Below, in pieces: positions 118 through 34,607 of a stretch of 43,337 nucleotides of DNA. Source of the stretch: an uncultured Bacteroidales bacterium. Its GTDB lineage: Bacteria > Bacteroidota > Bacteroidia > Bacteroidales > Muribaculaceae. The notes beneath the pieces were generated by a model, which was given only the letters and a program-made list of their open reading frames with translations, was not told the DNA's origin and ran no database searches. Position 1 is the first letter of the stretch; each line of letters starts with the position of its first letter. The stretch is from assembly GCA_902782465.1 (NCBI GenBank), contig CACZNH010000019.1, forward strand, positions 1 through 43,337. Reading direction: 5' to 3'. A program made the position numbers and the translations under genes.

Positions 118-156
118 GAGAGGTAATGTCAGCAATGATGTTGCCTCTCGTTTTTT
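118..156 (+). terminator. rho-independent terminator
   Basis: GAGAGGTAA at 118-126 pairs with TTGCCTCTC at 141-149 (one G-U pair) and is followed by G and six T residues. It should end a rightward transcript entering from before the window. Confidence 0.8.
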
Positions 157-196
157 ATAGACGCTATAGAGACTATAGAAGCTATAGATGCTATAG
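156..196. repeat. nonamer tandem array, CTATAG core
   Basis: CTATAG starts at 164, 173, 182 and 191, exactly every 9 bases, with a partial unit TATAG at 156-160. The three bases between cores vary. It lies directly after a terminator and before the next promoter. It is one of five 9-base-period arrays in the window. Confidence 0.8.
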
Positions 197-3604: not shown

Positions 3605-3606
3605 TT

Positions 3607-4572
3607 TTAATAGTTGCGGCCAGCGAGACGGTTGGAAAGAGCGATAAAGGCTTGCTTGTCGTCATCGCTCATTTTGACCTGGCTGAAGGCGTTGACAGCG
3701 AGGTCGTTGTAGCTGGTAATCGCTTGTTCGGCAAGTTCTCTGACGCCGAGGCGCTCATACAGGGCTGTAACACCAGCCACCTTGTTGTCGCGGGTGGCAT
3801 ACGGGTCGTTGAGCCAGTGGCGCAACTCGTCGGCATCGTCGCCTTGTGCCAGCTGCATGGCGTTGATGAGCAGGAAGGTTTTCTTGCCCTGCATGATGTC
3901 ACCGCCGATTTCCTTGCCGAAGGTTTTGGGGTCTCCCCACACGTCGAGGACATCATCGCGCAGCTGGAACGCTAGTCCCATGTTGACGCCTGCCTGATAG
4001 AGCAGTTCGGCATCCTGTTCATCGACGTCGGCTATGAGTGCTCCGGTCTTGAGCGCGCATCCTAACAGCACCGATGTCTTAAGTCTAATCATATTGATGT
4101 ATTCCTCGACAGTAACATCGTTGCGCAGCTCGAAGTCCATGTCCCACTGCTGTCCCTCATAGATTTCGATGGCTGTTTTGTTGAACAGGTCCATCACCTG
4201 CCAGTTGGCCGTGCGGGCGATATACTGTGTGGCGATGGTGAGCATGGTATCGCCGCTCAGGATGGCGGTGTTGTCGTTCCAACGGCGGTGCACGGTTGGC
4301 TTGCCGCGTCGCACGTCGGCATTGTCCATGACATCGTCGTGCAAGAGGGTGAAGTTGTGGAACATTTCCAGTCCCACTGCTGCGTCAATAGCCTCATTGA
4401 TGTCGCCTCCCATGGCATCGCATGCCATCAGCGTGAGTACGGGACGGACACGTTTACCACCCAATGCCATGTGGTAGCTGATGGGCTCATAGAGCTGGCT
4501 GGGTTGTGAAGGGTAGGGAATGCCGGCAATTGCCTTGTTGATGGTGTCGAGATATTCTTGGAAAAATTTCAT
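3607..4572 (-). CDS. all-trans polyprenyl diphosphate synthase
   Basis: A 321-residue trans-isoprenyl diphosphate synthase. It condenses isopentenyl diphosphate onto allylic diphosphates to make quinone or lipid-carrier precursors. The first Asp-rich motif DDVMD is at residues 79-83, followed by NADVRRGKPTVH, and the second, DDVLD, is at 206-210. Phe sits five residues before the first motif, a position that influences chain length, but the product length cannot be read safely. Two lipoprotein genes lie upstream and tatD downstream in the same operon. Confidence 0.92.
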   Translation of the reverse strand: MKFFQEYLDTINKAIAGIPYPSQPSQLYEPISYHMALGGKRVRPVLTLMACDAMGGDINEAIDAAVGLEMFHNFTLLHDDVMDNADVRRGKPTVHRRWNDNTAILSGDTMLTIATQYIARTANWQVMDLFNKTAIEIYEGQQWDMDFELRNDVTVEEYINMIRLKTSVLLGCALKTGALIADVDEQDAELLYQAGVNMGLAFQLRDDVLDVWGDPKTFGKEIGGDIMQGKKTFLLINAMQLAQGDDADELRHWLNDPYATRDNKVAGVTALYERLGVRELAEQAITSYNDLAVNAFSQVKMSDDDKQAFIALSNRLAGRNY

Positions 4573-14140: not shown

Positions 14141-14176
14141 TTCAAGATTCCAAAGAGACTGCTTTGGAATCTTGAA
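14141..14176. terminator. strong hairpin after the NUDIX gene
   Basis: A perfect 15-bp inverted repeat (14141-14155 against 14162-14176) with a 6-base loop starts right after the stop codon, between convergent genes. No T-run follows on either side, so termination is inferred from position and stem strength. Confidence 0.65.
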
Positions 14177-14218
14177 GATTAGAGATTAGAGATTAGTGAT
14201 TAGTGATTAGAGATTAGT
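14177..14218. repeat. heptamer array, GATTAGA unit
   Basis: Six exact 7-base units (GATTAGA or GATTAGT) follow the hairpin after the NUDIX gene. They lie in a convergent gap together with further irregular ATACAC-type repetition to about 14275. Confidence 0.85.
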
Positions 14219-14277
14219 GATGGTTGCTATACACTATACACGCGGACGATAGCCCGCAAATACACCATACACCTATA

Positions 14278-15174: not shown

Positions 15175-16098
15175 TCATTGTTGTTCTGGACTTGTCCAAA
15201 ACTTCGGTGCATCGGTGGTGATGACCTCATCAGAATCTCTTCGGGACGGAGTGAAGCCTTCGGGTACGATATTGATGTAGCGTCCCGATTCAAAAGTCTT
15301 ATCAGCACAGTCTTCCTGGAAGAAATGGAGTGTCTCCCAGCTTGAGAACCAATAAGTGTTCTTCGCCATGTATCTATAGTAGTAATCATGCTTGATGTTA
15401 GCATCCTTAAAGGCAGGATACATCACCATCTGCTCACCCGCAGCATATTTCTCACGCATTTCTAAGAGGTTGAGCGGCGTGCCGCTCTTGTCGGTACAGT
15501 AATGTCCGTCCATGTCGGCATCGATGTAGGCCCACTTACTGAGTTCAGGGAGCCACACCTCGTTCACCACATGACAGTCATTGTCGTCCTTGTCCTGTGG
15601 CAAGCAAGTCACATAACGAGCAGTCAAGCCTGCAGCCTGCATCAGCTCATAGTTGAGGATGGCATGCATGCGGCAGTTGAAGGCGGGACTCACGTCCTTG
15701 GTAAATTTCCACAGGTCTATCGCGTTAGGATGTTCAGGATTCTCATCGGGGTTATCGTGGGGGATGTTGCTGGCAACAAATTTGGAAATGGCAACTGCTT
15801 TTTCCCACGTTGTGGCATCAGAGCTATAGAGGGTATCTAATTTGAAGTATTCCCGAATTTCCTGAGCACGCGCCGAATCCCGTACAACACTAAAGTGATA
15901 TTGAACGGAATCGGGCTTGAACGACGACTGCTTCAGCAGTTCTACACGTTCGGCGAACTGGCCTTCTCTGTTGACCATCTGAATGTCAATATCATAACCA
16001 TGCGAATCAAGGTACCATAACCTGCCCACAACCAACATGCCAATAAGGGCAAAGATGCCTACAATAACATATAAAAGGTATTTCAAGAATTTCATCAT
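15175..16098 (-). CDS. membrane-anchored transglutaminase-like protein
   Basis: A 307-residue protein with an N-terminal transmembrane segment (residues 6-27) and a transglutaminase/papain-like core. The likely catalytic Cys is in SPAFNCRMHAILNYE, the His in DCHVVNEVW and the Asp in WAYIDADMDG. Such bacterial domains act as peptidases, amidases or transferases outside the membrane; the substrate is unknown. It lies 18 bp from radC and 51 bp from the lipoprotein flavodoxin, so co-transcription is likely. Confidence 0.82.
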   Translation of the reverse strand: MMKFLKYLLYVIVGIFALIGMLVVGRLWYLDSHGYDIDIQMVNREGQFAERVELLKQSSFKPDSVQYHFSVVRDSARAQEIREYFKLDTLYSSDATTWEKAVAISKFVASNIPHDNPDENPEHPNAIDLWKFTKDVSPAFNCRMHAILNYELMQAAGLTARYVTCLPQDKDDNDCHVVNEVWLPELSKWAYIDADMDGHYCTDKSGTPLNLLEMREKYAAGEQMVMYPAFKDANIKHDYYYRYMAKNTYWFSSWETLHFFQEDCADKTFESGRYINIVPEGFTPSRRDSDEVITTDAPKFWTSPEQQ

Positions 16099-22194: not shown

Positions 22195-22324
22195 ATTGTC
22201 AATCGTTTTGTTCCAATCGGGTAAAATTAGACATTTTTTCCCATAGCACCAACGTTTTTGCCCCCAAAGTGCCGAAAAGAGCATTTTTTCACGTCTTTTG
22301 CCATATCCCAAAAGCATTTTACAC

Positions 22325-22332
22325 TACCTTTG
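22325..22332 (+). promoter_or_regulatory. -7 element of the permease gene
   Basis: TACCTTTG followed by CC. TTTG at 22297-22300 may be the -33 element with a long 24-base spacer. The ATG at 22341 would be almost leaderless. Confidence 0.6.
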
Positions 22333-22340
22333 CCTTCGTT

Positions 22341-23587
22341 ATGATGGAATATGTGAATGCTTTTGTGTCGATGTTGAACGGCATGTCGCCGTATCTGTTG
22401 TTGGGTTTCCTGATAGCGGGGGTGCTGCATGCTTTTGTGCCGTCAGCAATCTATAGCCGCTATCTGGCGGGAACGGGGCTGCGGTCGGTGGTTACTGCGG
22501 CGGCTTTCGGCATCCCGTTGCCGCTGTGTTCGTGCGGTGTGCTGCCCACGGCGGTAGCATTGCGCCGCAGTGGGGCCTCGCGTGCCGCCTCGACATCATT
22601 CCTCATCGCCACACCTCAGACGGGTGTCGATAGCATTGCAGCGACCTATTCGATGATGGGTCTGCCCTTTGCCATCCTGCGGCCTGTGGCGGCGCTGGTG
22701 ACGTCGTTGATAGGCGGATTGGCCGTCGGCCATTGGGAGCGCAAGGGCGCACTCGGCGATGTGCAGGAGGATGCCAACTATGAGTTCAGCGAGTTGCCCA
22801 AGGGCTTCTGGAACAAGGTGCTGGAAACGCTGAAGTACGGCTTTTTCGACATGATGCAAAGCATCGGGCGCTGGTTGCTGTTGGGCTTGGTCATCGCCAC
22901 GCTCATCACCGTGCTGTTGCCCGACAACTTCTTCTCGACCTACGCCCGCTGGCCGCTGTTGAATATGTTCATCATTGTGCTGGTGGCTGTGCCGATGTAT
23001 GTCTGCGCCACGGGGTCCATCCCGATTGCTGCCGCGTTGATGCTCAAGGGAATGTCTCCCGGCTGTGCCCTGGTGTTGCTGATGGCGGGTCCTGCTGCCA
23101 ATGTGGCGTCGATGTTTGTCGTCAACAATGCCTTCGGTCGAAAGGCTACTATCGTCTATCTGCTTTCCATCATTGGCGGGGCAATGGGCTTTGGCATCAT
23201 TGTGGATTACTGGCCAGGGCTGCGCGAGGTGTTTGTCAATGCTTTGCCCTGCCATGTCATGCAGCATCACATGGATGTCTCATGGTTCAATACTGCCTGC
23301 AGCATCTTCCTGCTTGGCATGATTGTAGTGGCCTTGAACGCGAAATACTGGAAATCTTATCAAATCAAACGTCATAAAACCAATACAATGAAGGAATTTA
23401 AAGTAAAGGGCATGATGTGCCCCCACTGCAAGGCCAATGTGGAAAAAGGCCTTTCCGCCCTGCCCGGTGTGGAAAAAGTAACTGTTGACCTTGCCAAGGG
23501 TACCGCCCTCGTCGAAGGCTTCGTCCCCGACCAGCTCATCATCGACTGCATCGAGGACCTGGGCTACGAAGTAGTTAGGAGTTAGGA
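22341..23587 (+). CDS. metal efflux permease (DUF318, SO_0444 family) fused to HMA domain
   Basis: A 414-residue protein. Residues 1-335 are a polytopic permease of the PF03773 group, with the metal-binding GIPLPLCSCGVLPTAVALRRSGAS (Cys63, Cys65) and TSFLIATPQTGVDS; relatives export Cu or Zn. A linker then leads to a 65-residue heavy-metal-associated domain with GMMCPHC (Cys360, Cys363). The HMA part has its own internal ATG at 23388, so it may also be made separately. Frames upstream of 22341 contain the promoter. The last codons (Val-Val-Arg-Ser-stop) are encoded by heptamer repeats; the final bases here include the TAG stop. Confidence 0.87.
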
Positions 23588-23605
23588 GTTAGAAGTTAGG
23601 AGTTA
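23574..23605. repeat. heptamer array, GTTAGGA unit (left flank)
   Basis: Four full units (GTTAGGA, GTTAGGA, GTTAGAA, GTTAGGA) plus GTTA. The first units encode the permease C terminus and stop; the last A is the A of the next gene's ATG. The inverted counterpart lies at 23965-23985. Confidence 0.9.
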
Positions 23606-23910
23606 TGTCAGATAGTGTTATTCGTGAAAAAAGTAAGCTATTTGCCATTCGCATAGTGAGGTTGTATCGTCATTTGTGTGATGAAAAGAAAGAATGGATT
23701 CTTTCAAAGCAAATGTTGCGTAGTGGTACAAGCATTGGAGCCAATGTGGTTGAAGCACAAGCTGCTGTAAGCAAAAAAGACTTTCTTGCCAAAATGTATA
23801 TTTCCTTTAAGGAGTGCTGCGAAACAGAGCACTGGCTTGAGCTGCTTCACGAAACTGGTTATCTTGCCGATGCTGAATTTGAGTCAATCAATCAAGACAA
23901 CATCACTTAA
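23605..23910 (+). CDS. four-helix-bundle protein (23S rRNA intervening-sequence protein family)
   Basis: A 101-residue protein of the S23/IVP family: IREKSKLFAIRIVRLYRHL, WILSKQMLRSGTSIGANVVEA, KDFLAKMYISFKECCETEHW and LELLHETGYL are hallmark segments. The family is encoded inside 23S rRNA intervening sequences and as free-standing genes; molecular function is unclear, with RNA or nucleic-acid binding suggested. It is shorter than usual: a TAA at 23908 is followed in frame by 20 codons (beginning KKMLSSITFTT) that look like the missing last helix. Heptamer arrays in opposite orientation flank it on both sides. Confidence 0.85.
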   Translation: MSDSVIREKSKLFAIRIVRLYRHLCDEKKEWILSKQMLRSGTSIGANVVEAQAAVSKKDFLAKMYISFKECCETEHWLELLHETGYLADAEFESINQDNIT

Positions 23911-23964
23911 AAGAAAATGCTCAGTAGCATCACCTTCACAACTTCTAATAATCTAAAAAAAGAC

Positions 23965-23985
23965 AACTCCTAACTCCTAACTCCT
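23965..23985. repeat. heptamer array, AACTCCT unit (right flank, inverted)
   Basis: Three exact AACTCCT units, the reverse complement of the GTTAGGA-type units at 23574-23605. Read leftward they also supply the last codons and stop of ubiE. Confidence 0.85.
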
Positions 23986-24737
23986 AAATAGATGGTGCAG
24001 ACGCCTAGGGTGAGGCGCTTGCAGGTGGCGTCGTGCAGGCCGGCGTTACGCATCAGCTGCAGCATGTCGTCGCCTTGCGGGACGGCGGCGATGCTCTCGG
24101 GCAGGTAGCGGTAGGCGCTCTTCTCGCCGCTCTTTTTGGAGCCTATCCAGGGGATGATGTGCAGGGTATAGAGGTCGTAGAACCAGCGGATGATGGGATT
24201 GGTGGGCGTGGAGAGTTCCAGCACACATAATATGCCGCCGGGACGCAGCACACGCGCCATCTCGCTGTAGCCCTGCTGCAGGTGCTCGAAGTTGCGCACA
24301 CCGAAAGCCACCGTCACCGCGTCAAACGACGCGTCTTCCATCTCCAGCGCCATGCAGTCGCCTTGCTCAAAAGAGATTGCGTTTTCCAACTGTTTTTCCT
24401 TGACCTTGCGGCGTGCCTCGTCGAGCATCCCCTGCGAGAGGTCGATGCCCGTGATGTGCTGCGGATGGAGTGATTTGTACAGCTGGATGGCAAAATCGCC
24501 CGTGCCGGTTGCCACGTCGAGGATGCGGGTAGGGGAGAGGCGCCTGAGCCGCTTGACCGCGAGCCGCCGCCACCAAATGTCGATGCCCAGCGTCATCGCG
24601 CGGTTCATGAAGTCGTAGGCCGGTGCGATGGCGTCAAACATTTGCCTGACCTGCTCGGTTTTGGCCGTCGCCTGGTCGCCGTAGGGCGTCACCTGCTCGA
24701 CCCTGTTGCTGCTATTACTATTATTGTCTCTCCTCAC
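23970..24737 (-). CDS. ubiE: demethylmenaquinone/ubiquinone methyltransferase
   Basis: A class I SAM methyltransferase making menaquinone (C-methylation of demethylmenaquinone). Motifs: VRQMFDAIAPAYDFMNRAMT at the start, ILDVATGTGDFAIQLY (SAM loop), GIDLSQGMLDEAR, DAVTVAFGVRNFEHLQQGYSE and LELSTPTNP. The start is uncertain; a GTG at 24737 overlapping the phoH stop gives about 255 residues, somewhat longer than usual, and later GTG codons are possible. The C terminus LGVRS-stop is encoded by the heptamer array rather than the usual Lys-rich family ending. Confidence 0.9.
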   Translation of the reverse strand: MRRDNNSNSSNRVEQVTPYGDQATAKTEQVRQMFDAIAPAYDFMNRAMTLGIDIWWRRLAVKRLRRLSPTRILDVATGTGDFAIQLYKSLHPQHITGIDLSQGMLDEARRKVKEKQLENAISFEQGDCMALEMEDASFDAVTVAFGVRNFEHLQQGYSEMARVLRPGGILCVLELSTPTNPIIRWFYDLYTLHIIPWIGSKKSGEKSAYRYLPESIAAVPQGDDMLQLMRNAGLHDATCKRLTLGVCTIYLGVRS

Positions 24738-25710
24738 TCCTCGTTCCTCGCTCCTCTTTTTTGAAAAGACTGTCTTCCTCGTGGAAGCGCTCGTAGGCCT
24801 CAACGATGCGCTGCACCAGCTGGTGTCGCACGATGTCCTTTTTTTCAAATTCCACCTTGCCGATGCCACGCACACCGTCGAGCACGCGCAGGGCGTGAAT
24901 CAGGCCCGAGGTGGTGCTGCGCGGCAGGTCAATCTGGGTGGTGTCGCCCGTGACAATCATCTTGGAGCCCATGCCCAGGCGGGTCAGGAACATCTTGATT
25001 TGGTGCGTTGTAGTGTTCTGTGCCTCGTCGAGCACGATGATGGCGTCGTTCAGGGTGCGGCCGCGCATGAAGGCCAGCGGCGCAATCTGGATGACGTTGT
25101 TCTCCATGTACTCCTTGAGTTTGGCCTGCGGTATCATGTCCTCGAGGGCGTCATAGAGCGGCTGCAGGTAGGGGTCGATTTTGTCCTTCATGTCACCGGG
25201 CAGGAAACCCAGTTTCTCGCCGGCCTCCACTGCGGGGCGCGACAGGATGATTTTGCGGGCTTCGCGGTTCTTTAACGCACGCACTGCAAGAGCCACAGCC
25301 AGATAGGTCTTACCGGTTCCCGCAGGTCCCAGCGCAAAGGTCAGGTCGTTCTCGGCAAAGGTCTGCACCAGCAGTTGCTGGTTGGGCGTACGGCCGCTGA
25401 TGGGCTTGCCGTTCACGCCATAGACGATGACGTCGTCCATCTTCAACTGCTTGGGCGGTGCGCCCTTGATGGTGTCGATGATGACATCCTCGGGCAGCGT
25501 GTTGTAGGTCGCGCAGTAGTCGGCGAGGGCATGGATTTTCTCCTCGAACTGGGCCGTCTCGCTGTCGTCGCCGATGACCGTAATGACACTGCCCCTCGCT
25601 GCCATGCGCAGTTTCGGGAACAGGTTGCGGATGAGTTGTATGTTGCTGTTATTCACCCCGTAGAAGGTCACGGGGTCCACGTTGTCAATAATAATGTGCC
25701 GTTCAATCAT
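24721..25710 (-). CDS. phoH: PhoH-like ATPase
   Basis: A 329-residue PhoH-family protein. The P-loop GPAGTGKTYLA lies near residues 130-140, RPAVEAGEKLGFLPGD and IVLDEAQNTTTHQIKMFLTRLG (Walker B) follow, and MIVTGDTTQIDLPR is the sensor region. PhoH proteins are P-loop NTPases associated with RNA metabolism and are often next to ybeY; here ubiE follows. The last residues (KKEERGTRSEERQ) are encoded by a heptamer array, suggesting that the repeat has grown into or replaced the normal 3' end. Confidence 0.94.
   Translation of the reverse strand: MIERHIIIDNVDPVTFYGVNNSNIQLIRNLFPKLRMAARGSVITVIGDDSETAQFEEKIHALADYCATYNTLPEDVIIDTIKGAPPKQLKMDDVIVYGVNGKPISGRTPNQQLLVQTFAENDLTFALGPAGTGKTYLAVALAVRALKNREARKIILSRPAVEAGEKLGFLPGDMKDKIDPYLQPLYDALEDMIPQAKLKEYMENNVIQIAPLAFMRGRTLNDAIIVLDEAQNTTTHQIKMFLTRLGMGSKMIVTGDTTQIDLPRSTTSGLIHALRVLDGVRGIGKVEFEKKDIVRHQLVQRIVEAYERFHEEDSLFKKEERGTRSEERQ
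24731..24758. repeat. heptamer array, TCCTCAC-type unit
   Basis: Four 7-base units (TCCTCAC, TCCTCGT, TCCTCGC, TCCTCTT) at the phoH 3' end and the ubiE start. Both reading frames use it as coding sequence. Confidence 0.7.
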
Positions 25711-34118: not shown

Positions 34119-34523
34119 ATGAAGATAATAGATGATAAACTGGTGGATGCGCTGGCCGTGCAGGCCAAGCAGTCGCCCAGACTGAGGATGAATTACAATT
34201 TCCATCAAAGCCTTGAGGACAAGTGCCATCGTTTCCTCAATGCCCTGGAACCGGGCACTCAGGTGCCTGTGCATCATCATCCCACCAAGGACGAGACCTT
34301 TGTCATCCTGAAGGGTAGGGTGAAGGTGTTGATTTACAACGATGAGGGCGAGGTTGTCGAGTCCTGCATCCTGAGTCACGAGGACGGCGTGTACGGAGCC
34401 GACATCCCCAAGAACGTGTGGCACCGCCTTGAGTGCCTGGAGCCATGCGTGCTGCTGGAATGCAAAGAGGGTCCATTCGTCGAGCACGAGGTGGATGGCA
34501 TCCTGGAAATAGTTAGAAGTTAG
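34119..34523 (+). CDS. WbuC-family cupin metalloprotein
   Basis: A 134-residue single-domain cupin. The metal-binding first motif is VPVHHHPTKDETFVILKGRV (residues 49-68), and the second is DIPKNVWHRLECLEP. WbuC proteins occur beside O-antigen genes, and their reaction is not established; here no such locus is adjacent. The last residues Ile-Val-Arg-Ser-stop come from a heptamer array, as in the permease gene. Confidence 0.85.
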   Translation: MKIIDDKLVDALAVQAKQSPRLRMNYNFHQSLEDKCHRFLNALEPGTQVPVHHHPTKDETFVILKGRVKVLIYNDEGEVVESCILSHEDGVYGADIPKNVWHRLECLEPCVLLECKEGPFVEHEVDGILEIVRS

Positions 34524-34546
34524 GAGTTAGAAGTTAGGGGTTAGAA
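34512..34546. repeat. heptamer array, GTTAGAA unit
   Basis: Five exact 7-base units (GTTAGAA, GTTAGGA, GTTAGAA, GTTAGGG, GTTAGAA). The WbuC stop TAG lies within the second unit. Confidence 0.9.
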
Positions 34547-34607
34547 GTTTGGGCCTCGCCTTGGTGTGGCCGCAGCCTCATTAGGGGCGGCAGAATGATA
34601 GGCAGGC

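Follow-up and report, generated by a model that had tools for sequence, protein, structure and literature searches.

A probable small mobile element formed by an S23/IVP four-helix-bundle gene and its inverted heptamer arrays in Bacteroidales

Introduction

In RAYT/REP systems the gene carries inverted cognate repeats on both sides, many solo repeats lie elsewhere, and the repeat and protein subfamilies diverge together. The REP sequences and RAYT proteins, or REPtrons and REPINs, are the subject of PMC2817692 and PMC3116915. Another system with complementary ends around a small gene is the intervening sequence (IVS) of 23S rRNA; according to passages of PMC4990558, that of Coxiella, which holds an S23p ORF, is 428 nt long, and a Xanthomonas relative in the S23/IVP family is a toroidal homopentamer. 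The two solved structures of this family, 2gsc and 2rld, are without an assigned function.

Heptamer repeats are described on their own. Intergenic 7-nt arrays are made of GGGAATC in Xanthomonas and of GGGGA(C/T)T in Nostoc, and 70 cases in X. campestris are close convergent inverted pairs (passages of PMC4692102); a TAACTGA heptamer occurs in Beggiatoaceae, with arrays also in cyanobacteria and a few Bacteroidetes (passages of PMC4679880). The passages of these papers on heptamers name no carrier element, and the terms 'S23' in the former and 'four helix' or 'intervening' in the latter were absent from the text available. The literature titles and abstract openings searched, which mostly exclude subscription papers and so leave absence from print unproven, contain no link between an IVP gene and heptamer arrays. 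In the available parts of three further papers, PMC5524665 lists a four-helix-bundle protein between guanylate kinase and nicotinate-mononucleotide adenylyltransferase under phage regions, PMC8700078 places four-helix-bundle proteins among strain-unique genes, neither part naming repeats, and PMC10910872 has, in the key of a figure, a 23S rRNA IVP grouped with CRISPR-linked genes.

Here we describe an S23/IVP gene in the window, i.e. the whole 43,337-nt contig CACZNH010000019.1 of an uncultured Bacteroidales bacterium (Muribaculaceae), and compare it with loci of its genus, with more distant relatives and with the systems above.

Results

The S23/IVP locus of the window

The locus comprises the following features.

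22269-23585, + strand: ArsP-type permease (SO_0444 family Cu/Zn efflux) with a C-terminal HMA domain; stop codon inside the left arm
23573-23605, + strand: left (upstream) arm, AGTTAGG, 4.7 copies, 92% matches, TRF score 59
23605-23910, + strand: S23/IVP gene (four-helix-bundle, PF05635/TIGR02436), 101 aa, stop earlier than in relatives
23911-23925, + strand: stretch 3' of the IVP TAA, still matching the family profile; the match reaches 23925 with one TAA inside
23965-23987, + strand: right (downstream) arm, AACTCCT, 3.3 copies, 100% matches (TRF), reverse complement of the left unit
23970-24740, - strand: ubiE/menG methyltransferase, convergent to IVP; stop codon inside the right arm

The original prediction placed the gene between inverted heptamer arrays, proposed that the two flanks could pair in RNA as a stem enclosing it, and saw in them the stop codons of both neighbours. 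Each point stands. The AGTTAGG array at 23573-23605, whose last base is the A of the IVP start codon (23605), faces the AACTCCT array at 23965-23987; the arms pair around the gene in the predicted RNA fold of the element (-120.6 kcal/mol, z -4.3, 0/100 shuffles as good); and the permease stop lies in the left arm, that of ubiE in the right one. The flank score is that of the best local alignment when the 300 bp upstream of a gene are compared with the reverse-complemented 300 bp downstream of it; for the IVP gene of the window it was 20, against a 95th percentile of 11 among 660 other genes. In the permease ORF (22269-23585), the C-terminal heavy-metal-associated (CopZ-like) domain is in frame.

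The IVP ORF matched PF05635 with an E value of 1.1e-24 and also TIGR02436 (Pfam and NCBIfam profiles), and its AlphaFold model (AF2, pLDDT 93.7) is a four-helix bundle. The profile match over the curated cut-off, together with this fold, places the protein in the S23/IVP (PF05635) family. The model matches 2rld from Bacteroides thetaiotaomicron (54% identity) and 2gsc from Xanthomonas. Below these, among unrelated helical bundles, comes Avd (4dwl, TM 0.76; 8ub7, TM 0.73; 10-11% identity), a likeness that, because the Foldseek E values are 0.6-0.9, is backed solely by TM score and probability. As the family homology continues past the TAA at 23908-23910 up to 23925, the window protein lacks the C-terminal part of its final helix. 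L442 (G024) and L443 (G083) are further IVP copies with a premature stop or an interrupted frame, and IVP elements therefore seem to degenerate where they sit. Profile searches revealed no catalytic domain in the element, Pfam returning PF05635 only and NCBIfam TIGR02436 with two weak PRK12275 models; the same profiles gave no nuclease, recombinase or reverse-transcriptase domain.

The genome of the window (G000) has four IVP matches, three of them with inverted heptamer arms whose unit is different in each. The fourth gene, L003 (G000:C20:53137-53454), has inverted REP-like hairpin ends (GTGGAG..AAG) and no heptamer arrays, hinting that element ends can be exchanged.

Inverted arms at IVP genes in the genus and beyond

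The IVP search covered 61 of the 101 genus genomes, most being drafts in many contigs. From more than 150 loci listed, weaker and truncated matches were left out, giving 111 distinct places (113 loci, with L002/L039 and L003/L043 doubled), and 106 IVP genes were scored after removal of duplicates and short flanks. At a cut-off of 14, chosen after the scores were seen, inverted arms were found at 92/106 IVP genes and at 16/660 other genes of the same loci, a roughly 35-fold excess in keeping with the original prediction. Direct-orientation matches at this cut-off numbered 6/106 and 16/660, respectively. Lowering the cut-off to 12 gave inverted arms at 96/106 IVP against 23/660 other genes, and raising it to 20 gave 69/106 against 9/660. 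Clear arms were lacking at 14 of the 106 IVP genes at cut-off 14. Period 7 was the best for the upstream arm in 81 of the 92 armed elements, and G exceeded C in 79.

The 16 control genes with arms include, by eye, one RAYT-like gene, as well as one GxxExxY and two DUF559 genes; others lie less than 150 bp from an IVP gene, with a flank reaching into its arm, and a few are unexplained. Whole families were then scored, leaving out loci on truncated contigs (3 GxxExxY, 3 DUF559, 6 ParE and 7 Y1_Tnp). RAYT/Y1_Tnp genes, the positive control, had inverted flanks in 22/23 cases (direct, 7), and ParE toxin genes, the negative control, in 0/24 (direct, 0). GxxExxY genes reached 23/27 (direct, 6) and are a second single-gene family with inverted repeats on both sides, while DUF559 genes reached 8/16 (direct, 4), or 7/15 without L347, which is the same gene as GxxExxY locus L322. 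The inverted repeats at GxxExxY genes (L279, L281, L287 and L294 in the pyrG-yidC spacer; L300-L329) often have, by eye, a 9-nt period and are of CTAAGCCGC or ACGAATTA types; DUF559 genes L331-L345 often have inverted CCCCCTCT..AGAGGGGG hairpin flanks.

Outside the genus, the top 80 out of at least 590 stretches were taken, along with 14 of 30 plasmid records. Among their 95 matches 91 were scored and 61 were armed; L114 and L115 have the arms and scores of the genus loci L016 and L031, and their removal leaves inverted arms at 59/89 IVP genes, compared with 9/347 other genes in that set. Clear arms were lacking at 30/89 at cut-off 14. Twenty of these 30 arm-poor loci were searched for rRNA and gave no match, and an rRNA location was rejected for these. 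With L114 and L115 included, period 7 was the best in 50/61 upstream arms and G exceeded C in 56/61. By record titles, the IVP relatives in these 80 top stretches, out of at least 590, belong to Bacteroidota, Bacillota, Verrucomicrobia, Planctomycetes, Acidobacteria, Nitrospirae, Proteobacteria, SAR324, Campylobacter relatives, spirochaetes and candidate phyla. Further IVP loci came from plasmids of cyanobacteria and from a small number of other plasmids, and on plasmid records titled complete 12/14 loci have inverted arms. The named isolate genomes of Dyella (L192), Capnocytophaga felis (L171) and Thiohalocapsa (L139) have them as well. On cyanobacterial plasmids (L194, L195, L196, L202), IVP was seen between annotated beta/alpha ribonucleotide-reductase genes, cas6/cas4, and cas10/cmr3-family gene; IVP genes amid cas or ribonucleotide-reductase genes could mislead guilt-by-association searches.

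Arm units, protein subfamilies and solo arrays

Across the 92 armed genus elements, arm-unit similarity was correlated with IVP identity at sites without a common neighbour (Mantel r 0.377; maximum of 2000 shuffles, 0.115), the similarity climbing with identity only above about 60%. Units are unrelated between IVPs that share a genome and are less than 50% identical (66 pairs, mean 0.06), and resemble each other between IVPs of different genomes at 60% identity or more (444 pairs, mean 0.41, with shared sites counted). On these comparisons, the arm unit follows the IVP subfamily and not the host genome.

TRF reported further heptamer arrays elsewhere in the window. We defined a solo array as an IVP-less heptamer array more than 700 bp from any IVP gene (n=42). 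A unit of some genus IVP was matched by 39/42 of these, compared with 10/42 for shuffled units, and a unit of an IVP of their own genome by 18/42 (shuffle mean 4.3, maximum 13). Seven arrays of the window passed the filter, four matching own-genome IVP units and three matching units of relatives:

34511-34549, + strand: the window element's own unit, AGTTAGA/AGTTAGG
14176-14221, + strand: AGATTAG, unit of the same-genome IVP element L002
34082-34117, + strand: unit of the same-genome IVP element L001
40067-40145, + strand: TCAGTTG, unit of L001
12841-12873, + strand: TAAGTTT, unit of a relative's IVP element L010
28580-28652, + strand: TTAGGCT type, unit of a relative's IVP element L028
30041-30085, + strand: TAGTTTT, unit of a relative's IVP element L006

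The TRF arrays at 14227-14241, 15627-15641 and 24730-24756 are outside this set. The comparison with RAYT proteins and REP repeats, drawn from the window alone, is borne out on both sides, RAYT genes having the same flank signal (22/23) and the dispersed arrays bearing IVP units (39/42). The AGTTAGG pattern itself is present in 9/9 genomes with an IVP at least 74% identical to that of the window and in 24/92 genomes without; this co-presence was set aside as evidence, since the genomes share ancestry and several of them, such as the drafts G068 and G093, have many arrays and no match to the window's IVP.

Placement behind genes

In the genus, the upstream gene is co-directional in 87/91 IVP elements compared with 135/203 controls (P 8e-9), which agrees with the insertion at gene ends anticipated from the window. 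Outside the genus the count is 78/89, arm-poor loci and L114/L115 included. In the co-directional cases the arm starts at a median of 7 bp from the stop of the upstream gene. The corresponding counts are 25/27 for GxxExxY, 15/22 for RAYT and 13/21 for ParE genes. Considering this sense placement, the IVP element may live in sense RNA and perhaps act on it; the same placement would result if read-through transcription were under selection.

Occupied and empty sites

The permease adjoins ubiE (site 1) in 25/30 genomes examined, own included, and IVP is present between them in four of the 25, the window's own (G000), G017, G058 and G094, the G094 copy being in the opposite orientation. In the others the junction holds IVP-less AGTTAGG-type arrays (e.g. 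L218, L220, L225) or repeats of other kinds, or is almost without a spacer (L211, L212). G035 and G036 were not judged, because their ubiE is without an adjoining permease. In L214, L216, L217, L219, L226, L230 and L235, site 1 holds another kind of repeat, by eye with a 9-nt period and of TCTAGATAA type; the same kind is seen by eye at window 156-196, TATAGAAGC.

A second site of the same element subfamily lies empty in the window, gene names being given by reading of the proteins.

3605-3606, - strand: empty site 2, a 2-bp spacer between the polyprenyl synthase stop (3607-3609) and the tatD ATG (3604)

It was located because the flanks of same-subfamily elements in G032, G035, G036 and G043 align on either side of it. 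Thirty genomes, own included and G058 not among them, were read at this site. The IVP frame is intact in five (G032, G035, G036, G043, G094) and broken in G024, and the other 24/30 are without the element, with spacers of 4-5 nt counted with the stop codon (n=10), 8-37 nt (n=9) or 81-100 nt (n=5, among them G068 with an IVP-less array). Where the site is occupied, the spacer is 419-488 nt, the left arm runs from the stop codon and the right arm finishes 0-7 nt short of the ATG; all six copies are in the sense direction. An element is present at site 1 but not at site 2 in G000 and G017, at site 2 but not at site 1 in G032 and G043, and at both sites in G094. Occupied and empty alleles among relatives, a feature of mobile elements, are thus observed, and the empty sites looked for by the original prediction exist, one of them in the window itself. 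No target-site duplication was seen by eye at the tatD site, the sole site looked at, flanks elsewhere being too diverged.

A second subfamily occupies the position immediately upstream of yidC (eight genus elements, six of them with pyrG on the other side), and the pyrG-yidC spacers of L273, L280 and L291, at 37-53 bp, are nearly empty. To judge by coordinates, relatives in G023, G034, G040, G054 and G057 are placed immediately behind yidC. The distribution of subfamily A is partly vertical, with retention beside yidC. The median arm match upstream of yidC is 22.5 within and 15.5 between elements; a concerted drift of both arms was considered and is not relied on, as there are eight elements only.

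Discussion

A probable transposase-free mobile unit

Taken together, these data make it probable that the S23/IVP gene and its inverted heptamer arms form a small mobile element, REP/RAYT-like and resembling the rRNA IVS, in which IVP would be the cognate repeat-recognition protein. The proposed element would be made of an array, the gene and the complementary array, about 0.42-0.49 kb in all. It would insert immediately after a gene, in many cases at its stop codon, and in the sense direction; so placed, it could ride on the transcript of the upstream gene, where the arms would fold as a stem around the IVP reading frame. The unit probably travels as arms plus gene, as judged from the comparison of genomes. 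Sequence comparison shows that the arms belong to the IVP family and co-vary with its subfamilies, a subfamily being found at different sites with empty counterparts, and that most of the IVP-less heptamer arrays examined bear IVP-subfamily units. Because unit and protein co-vary, IVP would recognise its own heptamer array, most likely in the sense RNA stem. In the same way as RAYT for REP, it may promote the maintenance or spread of the element and of the solo arrays. The RNA stem may also be cut as in the rRNA IVS, a defining feature of which is excision from the transcript by RNase III. Cutting and joining would be borrowed from the cell, since no nuclease, recombinase or reverse-transcriptase domain was found in the element. 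Counting against a mobile element are the IVP genes with weak or no arms (14/106 and 30/89), the arrays of genomes that have no match to the window's IVP, the lack of a visible target-site duplication at the tatD site, the partly vertical distribution, the early stop of the window copy and the draft state of most genus genomes.

The absence of a catalytic domain (Pfam, NCBIfam) would suit a mover acting in trans, e.g. a Y1/RAYT transposase working on the hairpin ends, with IVP serving the element or the host otherwise, as an RNA chaperone or operon regulator. Y1_Tnp genes are present in 55/61 genomes, and inverted flanks also occur at GxxExxY and DUF559 genes, which we take to be nuclease-like. 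However, the RAYT ends in the genus are palindromes of another kind, the IVP-bearing genome G057 (91% complete) has no Y1_Tnp match, and the pure form of this explanation leaves the joint change of unit and IVP subfamily unaccounted for. We consider it less likely.

The arrays could also be hairpin gene-end repeats made by slippage, acting as terminators or mRNA stabilisers, with IVP merely tolerated between two of them. Consistent with this, IVP-less arrays start from the stop codon of ubiE in a number of relatives, stop codons are part of units such as TTAG/CTAA, and genomes that have no match to the window's IVP still retain arrays. That explanation is nevertheless improbable in view of arms that are inverted and not direct (92 vs 6 of 106), the rarity of such flank pairs at other genes (16/660), a unit that tracks the IVP subfamily and not the host genome, and the presence or absence of whole elements as a unit at the tatD site.

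Retro-mobility, in which the folded sense RNA and IVP as an Avd-like cofactor are copied by a reverse transcriptase in trans, would agree with Avd (8ub7, 4dwl) being among the nearest other folds and with the strong sense-strand placement behind genes. We give it little credence, because RVT_1 was matched neither in the genome of the window (94.8% complete) nor in G031 or G032, which have about 100 AGTTAGG pattern matches each; draft genomes may miss genes. As the own genome is without a match and only 23/61 genus genomes have one, a reverse transcriptase in trans was rejected as a general requirement. Finally, an artefact arising at repeats when short-read metagenomes are assembled or binned, suggested by the many-contig drafts that make up most of the genus set, is scarcely credible against the arms on 12/14 plasmid loci titled complete and in the Dyella, Capnocytophaga felis and Thiohalocapsa isolates, and against the recurrence of one site (tatD) in several genomes.

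If the IVP gene and its arms are a mobile element, a role can be proposed for the widespread S23/IVP family, together with an origin for the heptamer repeats known from separate reports on several phyla, and the orphan intervening sequences of 23S rRNA would gain a free-living relative. A long-open question becomes testable, namely how repeats spread without a transposase and whether the repeat is read as RNA or DNA. A broader view, which we put forward tentatively and regard as possible though short of probable, is that S23/IVP proteins are the specificity factors of transposase-free mobile elements in many phyla, acting on sense RNA and inserting behind stop codons. The rRNA IVS would then be members that landed in rRNA, the heptamer arrays seen in Xanthomonas, cyanobacteria, Beggiatoaceae and Bacteroidota would be their solo copies, and GxxExxY and some DUF559 genes would head parallel classes with other repeats.

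Comparison with known systems

Like a REPtron, the IVP gene has inverted cognate repeats, dispersed solo repeats and a repeat that diverges together with the protein subfamily, with a flank score like that of RAYT genes in the genus (22/23). Unlike it, IVP has no match to a Y1/HUH tyrosine transposase and no catalytic domain was found; the IVP ends are tandem heptamers, whereas REP sequences are palindromes, and IVP lies mostly in sense behind a co-directional gene (87/91, compared with 15/22 for RAYT). With the 23S rRNA IVS the element shares the protein family, complementary ends that enclose the S23p ORF, and a similar size (419-488 nt at the tatD site, 428 nt for Coxiella in the available part of PMC4990558). 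It differs from the rRNA IVS in that the IVP sites examined are between protein genes and not in rRNA helices, that of the window being between the permease and ubiE, and in that its ends are heptamer arrays with related solo arrays dispersed through the genome. The Dyella element (L192), with GGGAATA/GGGAATC arms, resembles the Xanthomonas GGGAATC repeats as given in passages of PMC4692102. The four-helix-bundle fold is shared with Avd of diversity-generating retroelements (TM 0.73-0.76), but, in contrast to these, which have a reverse transcriptase with template and variable repeat, the window genome (94.8% complete) has no reverse transcriptase match; unlike a DNA transposon or insertion sequence, the IVP element encodes no transposase (Pfam, NCBIfam). 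Because the IVP element lacks at least one tested defining feature of each of the IVS, REPtrons, diversity-generating retroelements and insertion sequences, we rate the element as a new kind; if the S23p-bearing rRNA IVS were counted as the same kind, the IVP element would be a much larger new variant of it.
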